Assembly (NCBI GenBank): GCA_934630855.1
Contig: CAKTWW010000032.1
Span: 1-26,090, forward strand
DNA length: 26,090 bases
Direction: 5' to 3'
Origin: an uncultured Collinsella sp.
GTDB lineage: Bacteria; Actinomycetota; Coriobacteriia; Coriobacteriales; Coriobacteriaceae
The notes below the pieces were generated by a model. The model saw only the letters and a program-made list of their open reading frames with translations. It did not search any database and was not told the origin of the DNA. This document shows, piece by piece, positions 8,377-18,586 of the stretch (its first letter is position 1; each line of letters starts with the position of its first letter). Position numbers and translations under genes: made by a program.

Positions 8377-9789
8377 ATGACCAAGAACCGCACCGAGGTC
8401 GCGGACATCGACCGCAGCCTCTACGACTTCACCTATGGCGAGGAGGGTTTCGAGCGCCTCGACGCCGGCATCACGCCCGACATCGTGCGCGAGATCAGCG
8501 CCAAGAAGGACGAGCCGCAGTGGATGCTCGACCTGCGCCTCAAGTCCCTCGAGATCTTCAACCGCTTCCCGGACCCGACGTGGGGCCCCTCTATCGAGGG
8601 CCTGGACATGGACAACATCGTCACCTACGTCAAGCCCAACACCGACCAAAAGCACGATTGGGAGTCGGTGCCCGACGACATCAAGAACACCTTTGAGCGC
8701 CTGGGCATCCCCGAGGCCGAGCGCAGCTACCTGGCGGGCGTCGGCGCACAGTACGACTCCGAGCTGGTCTACCACAACATGCAGGACACCGCGTCCAAGA
8801 TGGGCATCGTCTACTCCGGTATCGAGGAGGCCCTGCACGACCCGCAGTGGGAGCCGCTCATCCACGAGAAGTTCATGACGCTCATCCCGCCCACCGATCA
8901 CAAGTTTGCGGCCCTGCACGGCGCCGTGTGGTCGGGCGGCTCGTTTGTCTACGTGCCCAAGGGCACCAAGCTCGACTTCCCGCTGCAGAGCTACTTCCGC
9001 CTCAACGCCAAGGGCGCCGGCCAGTTTGAGCACACGCTCATCATCGTCGAGGATGACGCCGACCTGCACTTTATCGAGGGCTGCTCCGCGCCCAAGTACA
9101 ACGTGGCCAACCTCCACGCCGGCGCCGTCGAGCTCTTTGTGGGCAAGCGCGCGCACCTGCGCTACTCGACCATCGAGAACTGGTCCAAGAACATGTACAA
9201 CCTCAACACCAAGCGTGCGCGCGTGGACGAGGACGGCGACATCGAGTGGATCAGCGGCTCCTTCGGCAGCCACGTGGGCTACCTCTACCCCATGAGCGTG
9301 CTCAACGGCCGCCGCGCCCGCTCGAGCTTTACCGGCATCACTTTTGCCGGCGCCGGCCAGAACCTCGACACCGGCTGCAAGGTCGTGCTCAACGCGCCCG
9401 AGACCTCCGCGACCGTCGAGACCAAGGGCATCTCCAAGAGCGGCGGCATCCAGACCTTCCGCAGCTCTATCGTGGCCACGCCCAAGGCCGAGGGCTCCAA
9501 GGCAACCGTGAGCTGCCAGTCGCTGATGCTCGACGACCAAAGCCGCTCCGACACCATCCCGGCCATGGATATCCGCGCCAAGAACGTCGACATCGGCCAC
9601 GAGGCCACCATCGGCCGCATCGGCGACGACAAGGTGTTCTACCTGATGAGCCGCGGAATCTCCGAGGAAGAGGCCCGCACCATGATCGTTAACGGCTTTG
9701 CCAACCCGGTCTCCAAGGAGCTGCCGCTGGAGTACGCCGTCGAGATGAACAACCTGATCAAGCTCGAGATGGAAGGAGCGATCGGATAA
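8377..9789 (+). CDS. sufB: SufB, Fe-S cluster scaffold subunit
   Basis: A 470-residue scaffold protein that, with SufC and SufD, assembles nascent Fe-S clusters. The length matches the family. The N-terminal helical part (YDFTYGEEGFERLDAG, then WMLDLRLKSLEIFNRFPDP) is followed by a right-handed beta-helix core including YVPKGTKLDFPLQSYFR. Near the C-terminus the segment ATVSCQSLML carries a cysteine at the position used for sulfur transfer in well-studied SufB, and GHEATIGRI supplies the conserved histidine. Both catalytic positions therefore look retained. AGGGG precedes the ATG. The stop overlaps the sufD start (TAATG), so translation of the two subunits is coupled. Confidence 0.96.
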   Translation: MTKNRTEVADIDRSLYDFTYGEEGFERLDAGITPDIVREISAKKDEPQWMLDLRLKSLEIFNRFPDPTWGPSIEGLDMDNIVTYVKPNTDQKHDWESVPDDIKNTFERLGIPEAERSYLAGVGAQYDSELVYHNMQDTASKMGIVYSGIEEALHDPQWEPLIHEKFMTLIPPTDHKFAALHGAVWSGGSFVYVPKGTKLDFPLQSYFRLNAKGAGQFEHTLIIVEDDADLHFIEGCSAPKYNVANLHAGAVELFVGKRAHLRYSTIENWSKNMYNLNTKRARVDEDGDIEWISGSFGSHVGYLYPMSVLNGRRARSSFTGITFAGAGQNLDTGCKVVLNAPETSATVETKGISKSGGIQTFRSSIVATPKAEGSKATVSCQSLMLDDQSRSDTIPAMDIRAKNVDIGHEATIGRIGDDKVFYLMSRGISEEEARTMIVNGFANPVSKELPLEYAVEMNNLIKLEMEGAIG

Positions 9790-11060
9790 TGAAACAGGAA
9801 ACCAACGCCGCTGCTACCACCCTTGAGCAGGTCAACGCGATGCCCGCAGGTACCTGGGGCTGGTTGCGCATGAACCAGACCAAGCTCGAGCTTTCCGACG
9901 AGCTTGCCGCCGCTCCTGCCGAGGCCGTAGAGGTCGAGGGCCTGGACGAGCAGTTTGCCGGTGCGGACGACGCCTTCGACACCGCCATGGAAGCCATGGC
10001 CGAGCGCTTCCCCGAGCGCCGTGCCTCTGCCCCCGGTGACGCCGCCGACCGCGCCCGCATCACACCCGATACTGAGCTCGACGTGCCCGCAACCTCGGTC
10101 TACCAGGCCGGCGCCATCAAGCTCGAGGAGGAGCTCTCCCCCGCCGAGGCCTTCGAGACCGGCATGGGTGAGGCCGCCTACACCTACCTAGCCGACCACG
10201 CCACCAAGCGTATCGTCATCGATGTACCCGCATATAAGCACGCCAAGGCCACTGTGCGCGTGAGCGGCGTCGACGCAGCGGCTGCGATTGCCGCCATCGA
10301 CGTCGTCGCCCGCCCGCAGGCCACGCTCGACCTGAACATTGCCCTGGACTCCCCCGTTGCCGGCGAGGGCGTCGTGGGTTCCGTGCTACGTGTGTGCGCC
10401 CACGAGTACGCCACCGTCAACGTGACCTGCACGCAGACGCTCGACGACAGCTGGATCGCACTCGACGACACCGGCCTGTTTTTGGACGAGGGCGCACGCG
10501 TCAACGTGCGGCACACCGTTCTGGGTGCCGGCGCAAGCGCCACCGGTCTTGCCGGCGACCTGCTGGGCGACACCGCCAAGGTAACGATTGACACTGATTA
10601 CCTGGGCGCTCGCGAGCAGGTGCGCGACTTTAACTACGAACTGCGCCACCGCGGCCGCAAGACCGAGTGCGAGATCGACGCCAACGGCGTGCTGACCGGC
10701 ACGTCCAAGAAGGTCTACCGCGGCACCATCGACCTCGTGCACGGCTGCAAGGGCGCAACCGGTACCGAGCGCGAGACGGTGCTGCTCGCCAACAAGGGCG
10801 TCGACAACAAGACCGTTCCCGTCATCCTGTGCGACGAAGACGACGTCGCTGGCAACCACGGCGCCACGATCGGCCATGTCCGCGACGAGCAGCTGTTCTA
10901 CCTCGCCTGCCGCGGCCTTGACCAAAACGCCGCCGAGGACCTGCTCATCCGCGCTAAGCTGGAGGACGCCGCGCTTTCCGCCGCCGACGAGCGCACCCAC
11001 GCCGCCGTCGTCCGCCTGGGCAACAACCTGATCGATAACTTTGAAGAGGAGCTCGCATGA
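9789..11060 (+). CDS. sufD: SufD, Fe-S cluster assembly scaffold subunit
   Basis: A 423-residue SufB paralogue that forms a heterodimer with SufB on top of SufC dimers. The N-terminal 140 residues are Ala/Glu-rich and divergent, starting MKQETNAAATTLEQVNAMPAG and containing GTWGWLRMNQTKLEL. The beta-helix core ends with the family's typical AGNHGATIGHVRDEQLFYLACRGL, where the histidine of NHGATIG is conserved, then ERTHAAVVRLGNNLIDNFEEELA. It shares one base with sufB and four with sufS (ATGA), so the cistrons are tightly coupled. AGGAG lies 11 bases upstream of the ATG. Confidence 0.93.
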   Translation: MKQETNAAATTLEQVNAMPAGTWGWLRMNQTKLELSDELAAAPAEAVEVEGLDEQFAGADDAFDTAMEAMAERFPERRASAPGDAADRARITPDTELDVPATSVYQAGAIKLEEELSPAEAFETGMGEAAYTYLADHATKRIVIDVPAYKHAKATVRVSGVDAAAAIAAIDVVARPQATLDLNIALDSPVAGEGVVGSVLRVCAHEYATVNVTCTQTLDDSWIALDDTGLFLDEGARVNVRHTVLGAGASATGLAGDLLGDTAKVTIDTDYLGAREQVRDFNYELRHRGRKTECEIDANGVLTGTSKKVYRGTIDLVHGCKGATGTERETVLLANKGVDNKTVPVILCDEDDVAGNHGATIGHVRDEQLFYLACRGLDQNAAEDLLIRAKLEDAALSAADERTHAAVVRLGNNLIDNFEEELA

Positions 11061-12382
11061 TCGACACCGAGCACGTTAAATGCGATACCTGCACCGCCCC
11101 CGAGCCCATGGAGCTCGACGCCAGCGACGAGGCTTCGCGCGGCTGGCCTACCGTGGACATCGAGACCAACCCCTACAAGGGCCAGTTCCCGCTGTTCCAG
11201 CAGCACCCCGAAATCGCCTTCCTCGATAGCGCCGCCACCGCGCAGCGTCCCGCCTGCGTGCTCGACGCCGAGCGCGACTTCTACCAGCGCATGAACGCCA
11301 ACCCGCTGCGTGGCCTGTACTCGCTGTCCGTCGAGGCCACCGAGGCCATCGCGAAGGTCCGCCAGCAGATCGCCGACCTCATCGGAGCTGGCCAGGCCAA
11401 CGAAGTCGTCTTTACCCGCAACACGAGCGAGTCGCTCAACCTGGTCGCCAAGAGCTTTGCGCCCACGGTGCTGGAGCCCGGCGACGAGGTCGTCATCACC
11501 ATCATGGAGCATCACTCCAACCTGATCCCGTGGCAGCAGGTCTGCCGCGAGACCGGTGCCAAGCTCGTCTACCTCTACCCCACCAAGACCGGCCAGCTCA
11601 CCACCGAGGAAGTTCTTGCCAAGGTGGGCCCAAAGACCAAGATCCTGGCCGTGGGTCAGGTCTCCAACGTGCTGGGCGTCGAGAACCCGGTCAAGAACCT
11701 CGGCAAGCTCGTGCACAAGTACGGCGGTTATCTGGTCGTTGACGGCGCGCAGTCGCTGCCGCACATGCCGGTTAACGTGGCCGATCTGGGCGCCGACTTC
11801 TTTGCCTTTAGCGCGCACAAGGCCATGGGTCCTATGGGCATCGGCGTGCTGTGGGGCAAGATGGACCTGCTCAACGCCATGCCGCCCATGCTCACCGGCG
11901 GCGAAATGATCGATTCGGTCACCGAGCAGGACGCCGTCTGGGCGCCCGTCCCCGAGAAGTTCGAGGCCGGCACGCAGGACGCCGCCGGCATCTTCGCTAC
12001 GGGCGCGGCCCTCGACTACCTGGTCAACACCGTGGGCTACGAGAACATCCAGGCCCGCGAGCAGGCACTCGTCCACTATCTGATGGGCGAGCTCATGCAG
12101 CTCGACTTTGTACAGATCATCGGCTCCATCTATTGGGATAACCACCACGGCGTCGTGAGCTTTAACGTTAAGGGCATCCACCCGCACGACGTCGCGAGCA
12201 TCATGGACATGGACGGCGTGTGCATCCGCGCCGGCCACCATTGCGCACAGCCGCTGCTTACCTGGTTGGGCGTCGAGAACCTTGCCTGCTGCCGCGCCAG
12301 CGTGGCCTTCTATAACGACAAGGCTGATATCGACAAGTTCATAGCCGGCCTACATCACGTTTGGAGCACGTTCAATGGGTAA
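11057..12382 (+). CDS. sufS: SufS, cysteine desulfurase (group II)
   Basis: A PLP enzyme of 441 residues that removes sulfur from L-cysteine as a persulfide and passes it to SufU. The PLP lysine is K255 in FSAHKAMGPMG; D229 in VVDGAQS pairs with the pyridine nitrogen and H152/H153 in EHHSN stack on the ring. The persulfide cysteine is C396 in RAGHHCAQP, and the C-terminal CCRASVAFYN segment is typical. About 40 extra residues precede the core (MIDTEHVKCDTCTAPEPME), including a C9-x-x-C12 pair that normal SufS proteins lack; whether it binds metal is unknown. The start overlaps the sufD stop and the stop overlaps the sufU start by 8 bases. Confidence 0.96.
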   Translation: MIDTEHVKCDTCTAPEPMELDASDEASRGWPTVDIETNPYKGQFPLFQQHPEIAFLDSAATAQRPACVLDAERDFYQRMNANPLRGLYSLSVEATEAIAKVRQQIADLIGAGQANEVVFTRNTSESLNLVAKSFAPTVLEPGDEVVITIMEHHSNLIPWQQVCRETGAKLVYLYPTKTGQLTTEEVLAKVGPKTKILAVGQVSNVLGVENPVKNLGKLVHKYGGYLVVDGAQSLPHMPVNVADLGADFFAFSAHKAMGPMGIGVLWGKMDLLNAMPPMLTGGEMIDSVTEQDAVWAPVPEKFEAGTQDAAGIFATGAALDYLVNTVGYENIQAREQALVHYLMGELMQLDFVQIIGSIYWDNHHGVVSFNVKGIHPHDVASIMDMDGVCIRAGHHCAQPLLTWLGVENLACCRASVAFYNDKADIDKFIAGLHHVWSTFNG

Positions 12383-12809
12383 TCTGTACACCTCCACCAC
12401 GTTTATGGAGCACAACTCGCACCCCGACTACAAGTACGAGATGGACGCTCCCACGCATGAGCACGACGGCATCAACCCCAGCTGCGGCGACGAGCTCACC
12501 TTGCAGCTGCGCGTCGAGAACGGTGTGATCGAGGAGGCTGCCTTTACCGGTCACGGCTGCGCCATCAGCCAGGCCAGTGCCGACATCATGGCCGACCTCA
12601 TCACCGGCGAGACGGTCGAGGAGGCCCGCCGCCTGGCCGGGCTCTTCCTGGCTATGATCCGCGGCGAGCAGCTCTCCGAGGAGGACTTGGAAGACCTAGA
12701 CGAGGCTGCCCAGCTCCAGGACATCTCGCACATGCCAGCCCGCGTCAAATGTGCCGAACTCGCCTGGCGCACCCTCGACGGCATGCTCACGGGACAAAAT
12801 AATCAGTAA
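12375..12809 (+). CDS. sufU: SufU, zinc-dependent sulfurtransferase partner of SufS
   Basis: A 144-residue SufU that accepts the persulfide from SufS and delivers it to SufBCD. The zinc ligands are all present: C37 and D39 in NPSCGDE, C62 in GHGCAIS and C126 in RVKCAELAW. The insertion between the second and third cysteines (about 63-125), which separates SufU from IscU, is present and contains the acidic GEQLSEEDLEDLDE stretch. It is the last gene of the operon, overlapping sufS, and is followed 28 bases later by a strong terminator. No sufE, sufA or sufT is seen nearby. Confidence 0.95.
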   Translation: MGNLYTSTTFMEHNSHPDYKYEMDAPTHEHDGINPSCGDELTLQLRVENGVIEEAAFTGHGCAISQASADIMADLITGETVEEARRLAGLFLAMIRGEQLSEEDLEDLDEAAQLQDISHMPARVKCAELAWRTLDGMLTGQNNQ

Positions 12810-12885: not shown

Positions 12886-13686
12886 TTATTTTGAGCCCTC
12901 GGCTTGCGCGTCCACCTGCACATAAGCGCGCACAATGCGAGAAACGGTACTTTTGCCAATACCCGTATACCGCTCAATCTGACGCACCGTAAAACCGGCA
13001 TCGTGCAGTCCAAGAATAACGATATTGCGCTGCGCCGACGATGCGGCTTTAACCACGTGGAGCGGAACTCCGAGACCCTTCGCCAACTTTTCGGCAAAGG
13101 CGTGCCGCTCCCACTCCATCTCTTCCAGATCGGGCATCGCCGACTCGCCGTCGTCGGGCGTCGAAAGCGAATGGGCAATAAAGCCCTCGGCAGAACCAAA
13201 AAGCTCAAGCACGCAAGACGGGTCGGAAAATCCCCTCGTCATATCGCTGTCGTAGGCCCGTAGATACTCGGCAAAGCTACTCCACGGATAGTGCTCGATT
13301 AAGCTGATGCCAGCCTCCTGCGGATCGGCGTGCACAGAGCGAATAGACTCCATCACCTGCCAGTCGGTATCGAGCGAGCGGCGCTCAAAACGTTCACGAA
13401 ATAGGCAGCCCGCGCGCCCAGTGCGCTTATTGAACCGACGAGCATATGTCAACAACAGCCGCTGCATGGCTGCGCTCATTTCGTCCTCGTAATCCAAAAG
13501 CACCAGATCCACGTAGTCGCTCATTAGGCACCATGCCACGACCGTCACGCGCTCGTCGCGGCAGCAATCGCGCATCAGTTCCAAAAACTCCCGGCGGTCA
13601 GCGTCGTTTTCAAAGATGGCCTGCTTACCGACGCCTCGGGCCGAAACGTGATAATAACCGGTAACCGTTCTCCAAACGCGCTGCAC
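12886..13686 (-). CDS. REP-associated-transposase-like (Y1/COG1943) protein, catalytically inactive, with C-terminal HTH
   Basis: A 266-residue relative of RAYT/IS200-type Y1 transposases. The fold's landmarks are visible: GYYHVSARGVGKQAIF (10-25), WCLMSDYVDLVL (52-63), TYARRFNKRTGRAG (80-93), then the Tyr-motif region and YPWSSFAEYL (133-142). The metal-binding His-x-His of MPNHVHLLL reads Y58-V-D60 here, and the catalytic Tyr-Ile-His-x-Asn-Pro motif reads SVHADP (about 117-122). The metal-binding histidines and the nucleophile are therefore both gone. The C-terminus has a helix-turn-helix, FTVRQIERYTGIGKSTVSRI. A role as a DNA-binding regulator rather than a transposase is inferred. GTG 13686 is chosen because GGAAGGGG lies 5 bases upstream; an in-frame GTG at 13731 would add 15 residues. 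It is convergent with suf. Confidence 0.82.
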   Translation of the reverse strand: MQRVWRTVTGYYHVSARGVGKQAIFENDADRREFLELMRDCCRDERVTVVAWCLMSDYVDLVLLDYEDEMSAAMQRLLLTYARRFNKRTGRAGCLFRERFERRSLDTDWQVMESIRSVHADPQEAGISLIEHYPWSSFAEYLRAYDSDMTRGFSDPSCVLELFGSAEGFIAHSLSTPDDGESAMPDLEEMEWERHAFAEKLAKGLGVPLHVVKAASSAQRNIVILGLHDAGFTVRQIERYTGIGKSTVSRIVRAYVQVDAQAEGSK

Positions 13687-13731
13687 GGCAACCCCTTCCG
13701 CGGGACCTACTTGCGCCTTCCAATACACCAC

Positions 13732-14078
13732 GATTGAAGCGTGCTATCAAAACATACATGTAAAATGGCACCATCGCGCGGCAGAAGGCGGCAAACGGCC
13801 GGCGAACGGCGCCGCGGCACAGGTCAGACGATGTAACGTTTCCGTAAGCTGACCAAAATCGTCAAATAAAGAACAACCGCTTCTGATGAATTTGTCACAC
13901 TTAAATCGCTTCAATTGAAAGTTCCGCGCATCTCGCTACGAAAACTGCGCCGTTCGCCGAATATTCCGTGCATTTCGCGGTATTATAGGGCTGCATGTCA
14001 TGTCCCTTTCGAAGGGTCGCCCGGCAATCGCCAGCCACGACCCCCAGACGGGACGCCAACACGATAGAGAGGAGAGGC
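13732..14078. promoter_or_regulatory. Intergenic region with likely promoter of the NifU-like/GGGtGRT pair
   Basis: This stretch lies between two divergent genes and holds no convincing gene. TATTAT at 13981-13986 is a good -10 candidate for the plus-strand pair, placing a start near 13993 and an untranslated leader of about 85 bases; I see no clear -35 box at 16-18 bases. A perfect 10-bp palindrome, TTCAATTGAA, lies at 13910-13919. A GC-rich patch (about 13785-13820) has repeated GGC-AACGGC units. GAGAGGAGAGG directly precedes the ATG at 14079. Confidence 0.4.
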
Positions 14079-14813
14079 ATGCAGTACTCACAGGAAGTGG
14101 AGAACATGTGCCCCGTTGCCAAGGGTGCATACCACGGCCCCGCACCCATCCCCGAGGAGGGCAAGTGGGTCCAGGCTAAGGAGATTTCCGACATCTCCGG
14201 TCTTACGCACGGTGTGGGTTGGTGCGCACCTCAGCAGGGCGCCTGCAAGCTCACGCTGAACGTCAAGGACGGCATCATCGAGGAGGCCCTCGTTGAGACC
14301 ATCGGCTGCTCGGGCATGACCCACTCCGCCGCCATGGCTTCCGAGATCCTTCCCGGTAAGACCATCCTCGAGGCCCTCAACACCGACCTCGTCTGCGACG
14401 CCATCAACGTTGCTATGCGCGAGATCTTCCTGCAGATCGTTTACGGCCGCAGCCAGACCGCGTTCTCCGAGGGCGGCCTGCCCGTGGGCGCCTCCCTCGA
14501 CGACCTCGGCAAGGGCCTTCGCTCTCAGGTCGGCACCATGTTCGGCACCAAGGCCAAGGGCGCTCGTTACCTCGAGCTCGCTCAGGGCTACGTCACCCGC
14601 ATGGCTCTCAACGACAAGAACGAGATCATCGCGTTCGAGTTCCTGAACCTCGGCAAGTTCACCGACGCCGTCAAGGCCGGCAAGACCCCCGAGGAGGCCA
14701 TCGCTGGCGCTATGGGCCACTATGGTCAGTGGGAGAACGCTGCCAAGTACATCGACCCGCGCACCGACGAGGAGACTCACTCCGTCGCCAGCGTGTTCCC
14801 GGTTCACGAGTAG
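14079..14813 (+). CDS. NifU-like iron-sulfur scaffold-type protein paired with GGGtGRT protein
   Basis: A 244-residue protein whose first half resembles the NifU/IscU N-terminal scaffold fold: CKLTLNVKDGIIEEALVE (56-73), then TIGCSGMTHSAAMASEI with C77, as in the IscU GCGxAxASSS turn. Five cysteines are visible (C11, C49, C56, C77, C106). Their arrangement differs from IscU and SufU, because the NPxCGD motif is replaced by GVGWCAPQQGAC. The second half (about 115-244) has no feature I recognise. Proteins of this type are found in anaerobes next to GGGtGRT proteins and are annotated as iron-sulfur scaffold proteins without a defined function. ATG 14079 follows a strong GAGAGGAGAGG; a frame open from 13995 lacks one. 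Codon use is strongly biased (few rare codons), suggesting high expression. Confidence 0.82.
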   Translation: MQYSQEVENMCPVAKGAYHGPAPIPEEGKWVQAKEISDISGLTHGVGWCAPQQGACKLTLNVKDGIIEEALVETIGCSGMTHSAAMASEILPGKTILEALNTDLVCDAINVAMREIFLQIVYGRSQTAFSEGGLPVGASLDDLGKGLRSQVGTMFGTKAKGARYLELAQGYVTRMALNDKNEIIAFEFLNLGKFTDAVKAGKTPEEAIAGAMGHYGQWENAAKYIDPRTDEETHSVASVFPVHE

Positions 14814-14831
14814 AAAGGGAGGGAAATAACT

Positions 14832-15836
14832 ATGACTGTTACGTTCGAAGGTTACGAGCGCCGCGCTGGCAAGATCAACAAGTGCCTCGCCGACAACGGC
14901 ATCGCCTCCCTCGAGGAAGCTCTGCAGATCTGCACCGACAAGGGCTTCAACCCGCGTGAGATCGTCAACAACACCCAGTCCATCGCCTTCCAGAACGCTG
15001 AGTGGGCCTACACCCTCGGCTGCGCTCTCGCTGTCAAGCGTGGCGCCAAGTCCGCTTCTGAGGCTGCTGCCATCATCGGCGAGGGCATCCAGGCCTTCAC
15101 CGTTCCCGGCTCCGTCGCCGAGGACCGCAAGGTCGGTCTGGGCCACGGCAACCTGGGCGCTATGCTGCTCTCCGACGACACCGAGTGCTTCGCCTTCCTG
15201 GCCGGCCACGAGTCCTTCGCTGCCGCTGAGGGCGCTATCGGCCTGGCTCTGAACGCCAACAAGGCTCGTAAGAAGCCGCTGCGCGTCATCCTCAACGGTC
15301 TGGGCAAGGACGCTGCTCAGATCATCGCCCGCATCAACGGCTTCACCTATGTGAAGACCCAGTTCGACTACTACACGGGCGAGCTCAAGGTCGTCGAGAC
15401 CATCCCCTACTCCGATGGTCCCCGCGCTGCCGTTAACTGCTACGGCTCCGACGACGTCCGCGAGGGCGTTGCCATCATGTGGCACGAGAACGTCGACATC
15501 TCGATCACCGGTAACTCCACCAACCCCACGCGCTTCCAGCACCCCGTCGCTGGCACCTACAAGAAGGAGCGCATCGAGGCTGGCAAGAAGTACTTCTCCG
15601 TCGCTTCTGGTGGCGGCACTGGCCGTACCCTGCACCCGGACAACATGGGCGCCGGCCCTGCCTCTTACGGCATGACCGACACCATGGGCCGTATGCACTC
15701 CGACGCCCAGTTCGCCGGTTCTTCCTCCGTGCCTGCGCACGTCGACATGATGGGTCTCATCGGCATGGGCAACAACCCCATGGTCGGTGCCACCGTCGCC
15801 TGCGCTGTCGCCGTCGAGGAGGCCCTCAAGGCCTAA
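14832..15836 (+). CDS. GGGtGRT family protein of unknown function
   Basis: A 334-residue protein carrying the family's signature GGGTGRT at 260-266, followed by HPDNMGAGPASYGMTD and SVPAHVDMMGLIGMGNNP. These glycine-, histidine- and methionine-rich loops look like a binding or active site. No signal peptide or membrane span is visible. Cysteines (C18, C34, C64, C119, C203, C324) are scattered and form no classic cluster motif. It follows the NifU-like gene after 18 bases with GGGAGGG as ribosome binding site, and a terminator follows, so the two form a dedicated operon. Family membership is clear; the function is not established. A Fe-S-dependent metabolic or redox role is inferred only from its partner. 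Codon use is as biased as in its partner, pointing to abundant expression. Confidence 0.9.
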   Translation: MTVTFEGYERRAGKINKCLADNGIASLEEALQICTDKGFNPREIVNNTQSIAFQNAEWAYTLGCALAVKRGAKSASEAAAIIGEGIQAFTVPGSVAEDRKVGLGHGNLGAMLLSDDTECFAFLAGHESFAAAEGAIGLALNANKARKKPLRVILNGLGKDAAQIIARINGFTYVKTQFDYYTGELKVVETIPYSDGPRAAVNCYGSDDVREGVAIMWHENVDISITGNSTNPTRFQHPVAGTYKKERIEAGKKYFSVASGGGTGRTLHPDNMGAGPASYGMTDTMGRMHSDAQFAGSSSVPAHVDMMGLIGMGNNPMVGATVACAVAVEEALKA

Positions 15837-15871: not shown

Positions 15872-15906
15872 GAGCCGCTATCCACCTGGGTAGCGGCTCT
15901 TTTTTA
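15872..15906 (+). terminator. Rho-independent terminator of the NifU-like/GGGtGRT operon
   Basis: GAGCCGCTA (15872-15880) pairs with TAGCGGCTC (15891-15899). The stem can extend through TCC/GGG to a four-base ACCT loop, and is followed by TTTTTT. Confidence 0.93.
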
Positions 15907-17818: not shown

Positions 17819-18244
17819 ATGGACAGTAGAGATATCGAGAAGTGGCGCGTCGAACTTAATAGCTACGCCCATACGGAAGACGATGTTGAGTATTGGCTCG
17901 CACGAGATTTAATGGAACCCCTCGGATATACCCAATGGCGAAATTTTGAGACTGCGATAAAGAGGGCTATGGCATCGTGTGAAGTCAACGAAATGCCAGT
18001 TGTTTCCTATTTTGCTGAGACCAGCAAAATAGTCCCAACCGGAATAGGACAAAAAGCCGTCAAGGACTATAAACTGACTCGCTACGCATGCTATTTAATC
18101 GCCCAGAACGGAGACCCGAACAAACCGGAAATTGCACTCGCCCAGGCTTACTTTGCCGTACAGACACGCCGCCAGGAGCTCATAGAGCAACGCGCAGGCG
18201 GTCGCCGCGGCGCTCCACGCCCCGACGGGTTCGACCCCATGTGA
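17819..18244 (+). CDS. DinD-like / BRO-N type protein, apparently truncated
   Basis: A 141-residue protein matching only the N-terminal half of DNA-damage-inducible protein D. Recognisable pieces are YWLARDLMEPLGYTQWRNFETAIKRA (about 22-47), then KDYKLTRYACYLIAQNGDPNKPEIALAQAYFAVQTRRQEL (about 81-120). Full-length DinD proteins run to about 270-280 residues, with a second helical half after the RRQEL segment. Here the frame ends 21 residues later with a basic, proline-rich tail. Codon use is more AT-rich and mixed than in its neighbours, and it sits at a tRNA array, both consistent with acquisition. AGAGAGG lies upstream of the ATG. It may be an intact short variant or a decayed remnant. Confidence 0.75.
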   Translation: MDSRDIEKWRVELNSYAHTEDDVEYWLARDLMEPLGYTQWRNFETAIKRAMASCEVNEMPVVSYFAETSKIVPTGIGQKAVKDYKLTRYACYLIAQNGDPNKPEIALAQAYFAVQTRRQELIEQRAGGRRGAPRPDGFDPM

Positions 18245-18291: not shown

Positions 18292-18367
18292 TGGTGGGCC
18301 GTCAGGGGGTCGAACCCTGGACCTTGGGATTAAGAGTCCCCTGCTCTACCAACTGAGCTAACGACCC
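18292..18367 (-). tRNA. tRNA-Lys (anticodon CTT), distal copy
   Basis: A complete 76-base cloverleaf with encoded CCA. The acceptor GGGTCGT pairs with ACGGCCC (one G-U); the D arm is GCTC-AGTTGGTA-GAGC, the anticodon loop CTCTTAA gives CTT, and the T arm is CAGGG-TTCGACC-CCCTG. The top pair of the anticodon stem is G-A, a mismatch also present in the second copy. It decodes AAG and is the last gene of the His-Lys-Lys array. Confidence 0.97.
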
Positions 18368-18371
18368 AAAG

Positions 18372-18397
18372 CTAAAGTCCGTTGTGGCGGACTTTAG
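18372..18397 (-). other. Perfect hairpin between the two tRNA-Lys genes
   Basis: CTAAAGTCCG (18372-18381) and CGGACTTTAG (18388-18397) form a perfect 10-bp stem with a six-base loop, ending 4 bases before the mature 5' end of the distal tRNA-Lys. There is no T tract, so an RNA-processing role in the tRNA precursor is more likely than termination. Confidence 0.7.
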
Positions 18398-18410
18398 AGG
18401 AGATATCGTG

Positions 18411-18486
18411 TGGTGGGCCGTCAGGGGGTCGAACCCTGGACCTTGGGATTAAGAGTCCCCTGCTCTACCAACTGAGCTAACGACCC
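18411..18486 (-). tRNA. tRNA-Lys (anticodon CTT), proximal copy
   Basis: This gene is identical over all 76 bases, including the CCA, to the copy at 18292-18367, pointing to a recent tandem duplication or gene conversion. It is the middle gene of the minus-strand array, 22 bases after tRNA-His. Confidence 0.97.
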
Positions 18487-18508
18487 GATATCAACACGAA
18501 GCAAGAAC

Positions 18509-18586
18509 TGGGGTGGGTAAAGGGACTCGAACCCTCGACCTACGGGACCACAACCCGTCGCTCTAGCCAACTGAGCTACACCCACC
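18509..18586 (-). tRNA. tRNA-His (anticodon GTG)
   Basis: The first gene of the array, with encoded CCA. The 5' end GGTGGGTG includes the extra G(-1) typical of tRNA-His, opposite the C of CACCCC-A. The anticodon loop TTGTGGT in stem ACGGG/CCCGT gives GTG, and the T arm is GAGGG-TTCGAGT-CCCTT. It decodes both histidine codons. Confidence 0.97.

Follow-up and report, generated by a model that had tools for sequence, protein, structure and literature searches.

What does a protein that looks like an iron-sulfur (Fe-S) scaffold do next to a GGGtGRT protein? The question is raised by a two-gene operon in the window, by which we mean the whole stretch of 26,090 nt from an uncultured Collinsella sp. 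that was analysed. The first gene, U (14079..14813, plus strand), encodes a protein of 244 aa with a predicted IscU fold. The second gene, G (14832..15836, plus strand), encodes a GGGtGRT protein of 334 aa (PF14057, 629 bits). Both open reading frames (ORFs) are co-directional and only 18 nt apart, just as expected for the operon that had been proposed here.

Operon structure and expression signals

The operon lies downstream of a housekeeping Fe-S assembly system, sufB, sufD, sufS and sufU (8377..12809, plus strand). Between the suf genes and U there is an IS200-like (Y1_Tnp) transposase ORF with a helix-turn-helix match on the minus strand (12886-13731). Further downstream, at 17819-18244 and 18295-18585, a 141-aa ORF that matches the first part of DinD only sits beside three tRNA genes (minus strand). 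This region is possibly the remnant of an insertion.

The operon had been predicted to have strong ribosome-binding sites, a marked codon bias, a promoter of its own and a terminator. The first two predictions are borne out. Purine-rich ribosome-binding sites precede both genes: GAGAGGAG before U (14067..14074, plus strand) and AGGGAGGG before G (14816..14823, plus strand), the latter read from the sequence. Each column of the U site is at least 90% conserved in 38 non-redundant upstream regions from Coriobacteriia, all from loci chosen by a pattern on the N-terminus of U. Codon bias is strong, with an ENC of 29.4 for U and 28.2 for G. No other window ORF among the 20 scored lies below both except sufB, at 27.7.

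The promoter and the terminator fare less well. A -10-like TATTAT box at 13981..13986 (plus strand) is the candidate promoter element. TAnnATA/G counterparts of the box occur upstream of U in several other Collinsella, but a sigma-70 promoter scan returned no promoter-like site upstream of U. A promoter at this box is thus plausible. Similarly, a terminator-like hairpin with a 12-pair stem and a TTTTTT tract behind it is present at 15872..15905 (plus strand), but it was found with a permissive scan for which 1.9 such matches are expected by chance.

U and G occur together

U adjoins G, always on the upstream side, in all 102 loci that were found through G. These loci come from a class search (12), genome contigs (80) and plasmid and phage records (10). 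They are not independent: most are from Coriobacteriia, many are close relatives, and some genomes were reached twice. The window belongs to the C. aerofaciens group of Collinsella, and in the best loci G is 99-100% identical to that of the window. In nine more distant loci (L093-L099, L101 and L102) identity to the window falls to 68-75% for U and 69-77% for G. Named organisms with an adjacent pair span four phyla and include Collinsella, Olsenella, Bacteroides, Parabacteroides, Phocaeicola, Persicobacter, Subdoligranulum and Vibrio.

The gap between the two genes measures 4-31 nt in 95 of the 102 loci, as determined by a script that takes the first ATG. Among the seven loci outside this range are a Parabacteroides locus with a 63-aa ORF between U and G (L096:5791-5982) and a human-gut contig with an early TGA inside G (L100, near 5001; GYE-stop-RID). 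The early TGA is either an error or the mark of a pseudogene. An apparent natural fusion of U and G (P0051, 585 aa) was taken to be a gene-calling effect: it carries Gln at the TAG stop of U, and its length is that of a read-through product. Several records of a plasmid collection from one gut-isolate series (OY725xxx) also carry the operon. They resemble pieces of chromosome, so their plasmid label may be doubtful.

Searching without regard to adjacency gives the same picture. Of the Actinomycetota genomes surveyed (396), 18 contain full-length U (>440 bits), and these are exactly the 18 that contain G; a further 18 genomes contain weak, generic matches to U only (27 bits or less). Thus, within this one phylum neither gene was met without the other, in line with the predicted co-occurrence. 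A search with U turned up four viral contigs that carry G too, and all four had already been found by G. G is present in 39 of 149 Coriobacteriia and, among 14 control genomes, only in Bacteroides ihuae.

The two proteins also diverge together. Across 28 non-redundant pairs the distances of U and G correlate with r = 0.90 (0.87 for the 11 pairs outside Coriobacteriia), although shared ancestry alone also raises this correlation. Within Coriobacteriaceae both proteins are as conserved as SufB. Because G is the constant neighbour of U, G is the natural candidate for a client or co-subunit of U.

U lacks the motifs of a cluster-releasing scaffold

Residues 38-130 of U are predicted to adopt the IscU fold, which is the fold of the top 18 matches listed. 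At the sequence level the relationship is faint. The NifU_N profile (PF01592) matches U with an E-value of 3e-4 and 21.3 bits, just below its gathering cut-off of 22, and some relatives of U carry a precomputed PF01592 listing. The SufU equivalog TIGR01994 gives no match to U at an E-value of 0.001, whereas the window's own sufU (at 12375) reaches 146.9 bits.

Compared to the N-terminal scaffolds of the IscU/SufU/NifU type (PF01592), U differs in four ways. First, neither PxCGD nor PPxK, the pattern of the LPPVK-like chaperone loop, is present in any of 132 U sequences (0/132 for each). LPPVK is reported to be the motif recognised by Hsp70; this loop belongs to IscU and is absent from SufU. 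The window's SufU, by comparison, retains PSCGD. In the alignment Gln53 of U takes the place of the first ligand cysteine of PxCGD, and U has no Asp at the place of D39. Second, the first cysteine is displaced by four residues. Third, U has an extra C-terminal part (130-244). Fourth, its genomic partner is G instead of a desulfurase.

The missing Asp recalls the D39A-type variants of IscU, in which the cluster is stabilised, except that U is a natural and conserved protein. Clusters are more stable after the D39A exchange in both A. vinelandii IscU and S. pombe Isu1 (PMC3789972). D39A is also reported to move human ISCU to the disordered state and to have the opposite effect in E. coli IscU.

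Four non-canonical cysteines had been singled out in U, and three of them hold up. In a sample of 121 U sequences that is rich in Vibrionaceae, C49 is kept in 120 and C77 and C106 in all 121, but C56 is kept in only 24. In 12 diverse sequences C49, C77 and C106 are kept in all 12 and C56 in 10. C49 (CAPQQG; codon 14223..14225, plus strand) is the displaced cysteine, four residues ahead of the first-cysteine position of IscU in the alignment. C77 (GCSGMT; 14307..14309, plus strand) is the counterpart of the second ligand, IscU C63, according to alignments. C106 (TDLVCDA; 14394..14396, plus strand) lies where the final helix of the IscU-like part begins (modelled at residues 107-121), and it may correspond to the third ligand, IscU C106. 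Since C49 sits four residues away from the ligand position of IscU, a pocket formed by the three cysteines is not certain.

Outside the IscU-like part, residues 150-232 resemble a second IscU hairpin by eye. This internal repeat was rejected: hhalign against residues 38-130 scored 12.0, while 60 column-shuffled control runs reached up to 18.7. The Collinsella proteins end in about 14 extra residues (14769-14813 in the window), which are absent from 11 other diverse U sequences.

G is a conserved protein with a motif-like segment

G itself belongs to an already known family; the new part is the reading of U as release-deficient. G is a full-length PF14057 member that does not differ from other GGGtGRT proteins (629.4 bits against a cut-off of 27, profile positions 1-327 of 327). 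No second Pfam family appears in G at E-values up to 10, and neither NCBIfam (at 0.001) nor PHROG gives a match. A PDB sequence search found nothing below an E-value of 0.02, and Foldseek with the G model nothing at or below 0.001. A second look at G with VIA produced tied Rossmann-like matches, and Rossmann-like alpha/beta folds such as the universal stress protein 2pfs are among the closest known systems. The absent relatives do not show that the fold is new. The GGGTG of G may resemble the glycine loops of FtsZ or YvcK/CofD.

The motif GGGTGRT lies at residues 260-266 (15609..15629, plus strand), at the start of a nearly invariant segment, 260-304 (GGGtGRT...HPDN...MGRMHSDAQFAGSSSVPAH). Invariant His and Met residues were found as well, which agrees with the description that had been given of G. 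A model of U and G as one fused chain is of middling confidence (pLDDT 67.9) and leaves the conserved residues 260-300 unordered.

Three cysteines of G are conserved: C119 (codon 15186..15188, plus strand) in 233 of 233 sequences, C34 and C203 in 232 each. These cysteines bear on a transient role for U, as a maturation factor that supplies G with a cluster or sulfur and then departs, so that the working Fe-S protein would be G by itself. Besides the cysteines of G, the three conserved cysteines of U and the strict pairing would fit such a role. However, U has no release motifs, and in the diverse set only C119 is invariant (12/12), with C34 and C203 at 11/12 each. We consider this maturation role quite unlikely.

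A separate assembly system in the same genomes

A SUFBD match was obtained in each of the 39 Coriobacteriia that carry G, in one of them (G117) a weaker one only. G147, of the same genus as G117, has neither SUF nor G, a double absence that may come from one assembly gap. Hence, U is not the sole scaffold of these cells. Database names such as 'nitrogen-fixing protein NifU' and 'iron-sulfur cluster assembly scaffold protein', as well as the predicted fold, speak for a general scaffold. Set against the strict pairing with G, a SUF system that comes with a SufU of its own, and the absence of PxCGD and PPxK, they leave such a role highly improbable.

The closeness of the suf genes and the operon in the window is not general. 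Among the places listed, 23 of the 24 genomes in family f1 have SUF and G on a single contig, at most 25 kb apart; the remaining genome, G117, is unlisted. In family f3 (14 genomes) they are more than 50 kb apart in 7 and on different contigs in the other 7. SUF proximity is thus a trait of one family.

Because the release motifs are absent, three cysteines are kept and SUF is found in every one of the G-bearing Coriobacteriia, U probably holds a cluster as a partner or subunit of G and does not act as a general scaffold. The original prediction that U serves G instead of general assembly is partly supported. Adjacency in every locus, occurrence in the same 18 genomes, the ubiquity of SUF, correlated divergence and the missing release motifs are all on its side, but the conservation it implied for C56 fails.

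Iron response and iron storage

Published data from two phyla show that U and G respond to iron. When B. thetaiotaomicron is depleted of iron, BT0173-74 are reported to decrease by a factor of 11 to 12.8 (PMC10434189). In C. pasteurianum at iron excess, G was 7.1-fold higher early and 2.2-fold late; U, detected as two spots, was 2.4- and 3.7-fold higher early and 1.6- and 2.9-fold late (PMC5395762). PFOR, hydrogenase and aconitase moved in the same direction as the pair and flavodoxin in the opposite direction (PMC5395762). Since the levels of the pair track PFOR and hydrogenase, an iron-using enzyme is indicated rather than an uptake or starvation function. The iron response in two phyla also fits iron better than zinc. 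This bears on U as a structural or zinc-binding subunit that carries no cluster, with G an enzyme that is iron-regulated for other reasons. Two sets of solved relatives of the IscU fold do bind zinc (SufU and zinc IscU), and the first cysteine of U is displaced, but overall we regard this explanation as improbable.

The products also appear to be abundant. G is termed highly expressed in vivo in several chicken gut anaerobes (PMC11204068). Rumen metaproteomes list G together with a 'nitrogen-fixing protein NifU' that is not stated to be U (PMC7035244, PMC6043501). In a cancer study, GGGtGRT and NifU proteins with neighbouring locus tags fall together (PMC12014591). GGGtGRT is also among the software-predicted virulence factors of C. 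innocuum (PMC9942572), to which we give no weight. The passages that name GGGtGRT proteins assign no biochemical function to them, and a literature search for a function of the pair or for an attachment site found nothing.

Could the pair be a store? An abundant U-G complex might act as a reservoir of iron or Fe-S clusters, which takes up iron in times of plenty and yields it in scarcity. Iron-dependent levels, the high expression reported from several gut anaerobes and cluster retention by U would all suit a store, and this is the main rival explanation. Two observations argue against it: most of the G-bearing Coriobacteriia contain ferritin, and G is conserved in the manner of a functional site. 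A strong ferritin match (E-value below 1e-20) is found in 27 of the 39 G-bearing Coriobacteriia compared to 39 of 110 without G, a comparison confounded by order. A role of the pair as a plain substitute for ferritin is therefore not supported. Furthermore, G has one invariant cysteine and a motif-like invariant segment instead of a repetitive metal-rich sequence. On balance, a reservoir seems unlikely.

Twelve of the 39 G-bearing Coriobacteriia have no strong ferritin match (G001, G065, G077, G101, G107, G109, G119, G131, G133, G141, G143 and G149). Ten of these belong to the genus of G001. Relatives do have such a match. [FeFe]-hydrogenase is uninformative, being present in 111 of 149 genomes and in 35 of the 39 with G.

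A proposed role for the pair

We propose that U and G form a dedicated iron-dependent system, in which U holds a cluster and G is most likely an Fe-S-dependent enzyme. In our estimate this proposal has an even chance of being right. Points against it are the displacement of C49, the contrary behaviour of human ISCU with D39A, the middling confidence of the fused model and the closeness of SUF to the pair in one family only. SUF would build clusters for the whole cell. U would take or build one cluster and, having neither the Asp of PxCGD nor the chaperone loop, would keep it. Ergo U would be an IscU-type protein in which a scaffold that released clusters has come to hold them. It would present the held cluster to G or share it with G. 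The segment 260-304 would form the functional site of G and most likely serve as the active site of the enzyme, and G would be abundant and produced when iron is plentiful. The cluster on U, the contact between U and G, catalysis by G and the order of these events are what we infer.

A more specific version places the cluster at the U-G interface, bound by C49, C77 and C106 of U and C119 of G, with GGGtGRT as the active site and the scaffold fold as a permanent enzyme subunit. Anaerobes would then make U-G in bulk whenever iron allows. We hold this version to be possible, though rather unlikely.

The motif analysis provides a test of the proposed holding role: U should retain its cluster instead of releasing it, and G should be its only client. 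If U does hold a cluster for G alone, then a new kind of Fe-S protein would be defined, and some of the iron that anaerobes use would be accounted for.

Mobile elements at the 3' end of G

In two loci of Bacteroidota type the 3' end of G is duplicated, with identity beginning at about codons 277-281 (window numbering). A Phocaeicola locus (L101:5824-8301) contains two copies 2.3 kb apart; in the other case (L108:467-700 with L168:581-814) the copies are about 14 kb apart. Att repeats were found for both L101 and L108. The junction corresponds to codons 278-283 of the window's G (SYGMTD; 15663..15680, plus strand), where the window itself has no element. Two further contigs (L170 and L171) start at about the same codon of G (~278).

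An integrase is the next ORF after G in all six IMG/VR contigs that hold the 3' end of G (L103-L108). This sample is biased, because a viral collection takes contigs in which phage genes adjoin. Four phage-collection contigs continue past the end of G (L098, L169-L171), and none of them has an integrase next to it. For L104-L107 the stretch from G to the integrase and the other end share no 12-mer, and L103 has a single 12-base match. Thus, for L103-L107 it is the adjacent integrase alone that suggests integration. A literature search combining NifU, integrase, Bacteroides and 'attachment site' found no publication.

Judged from these contigs, mobile elements seem to integrate recurrently at the 3' end of G. 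Since the 3' ends are duplicated, an arriving element would supply a new 3' end in place of the old one, so that G stays complete. An intact G after integration suggests that G matters to the host.
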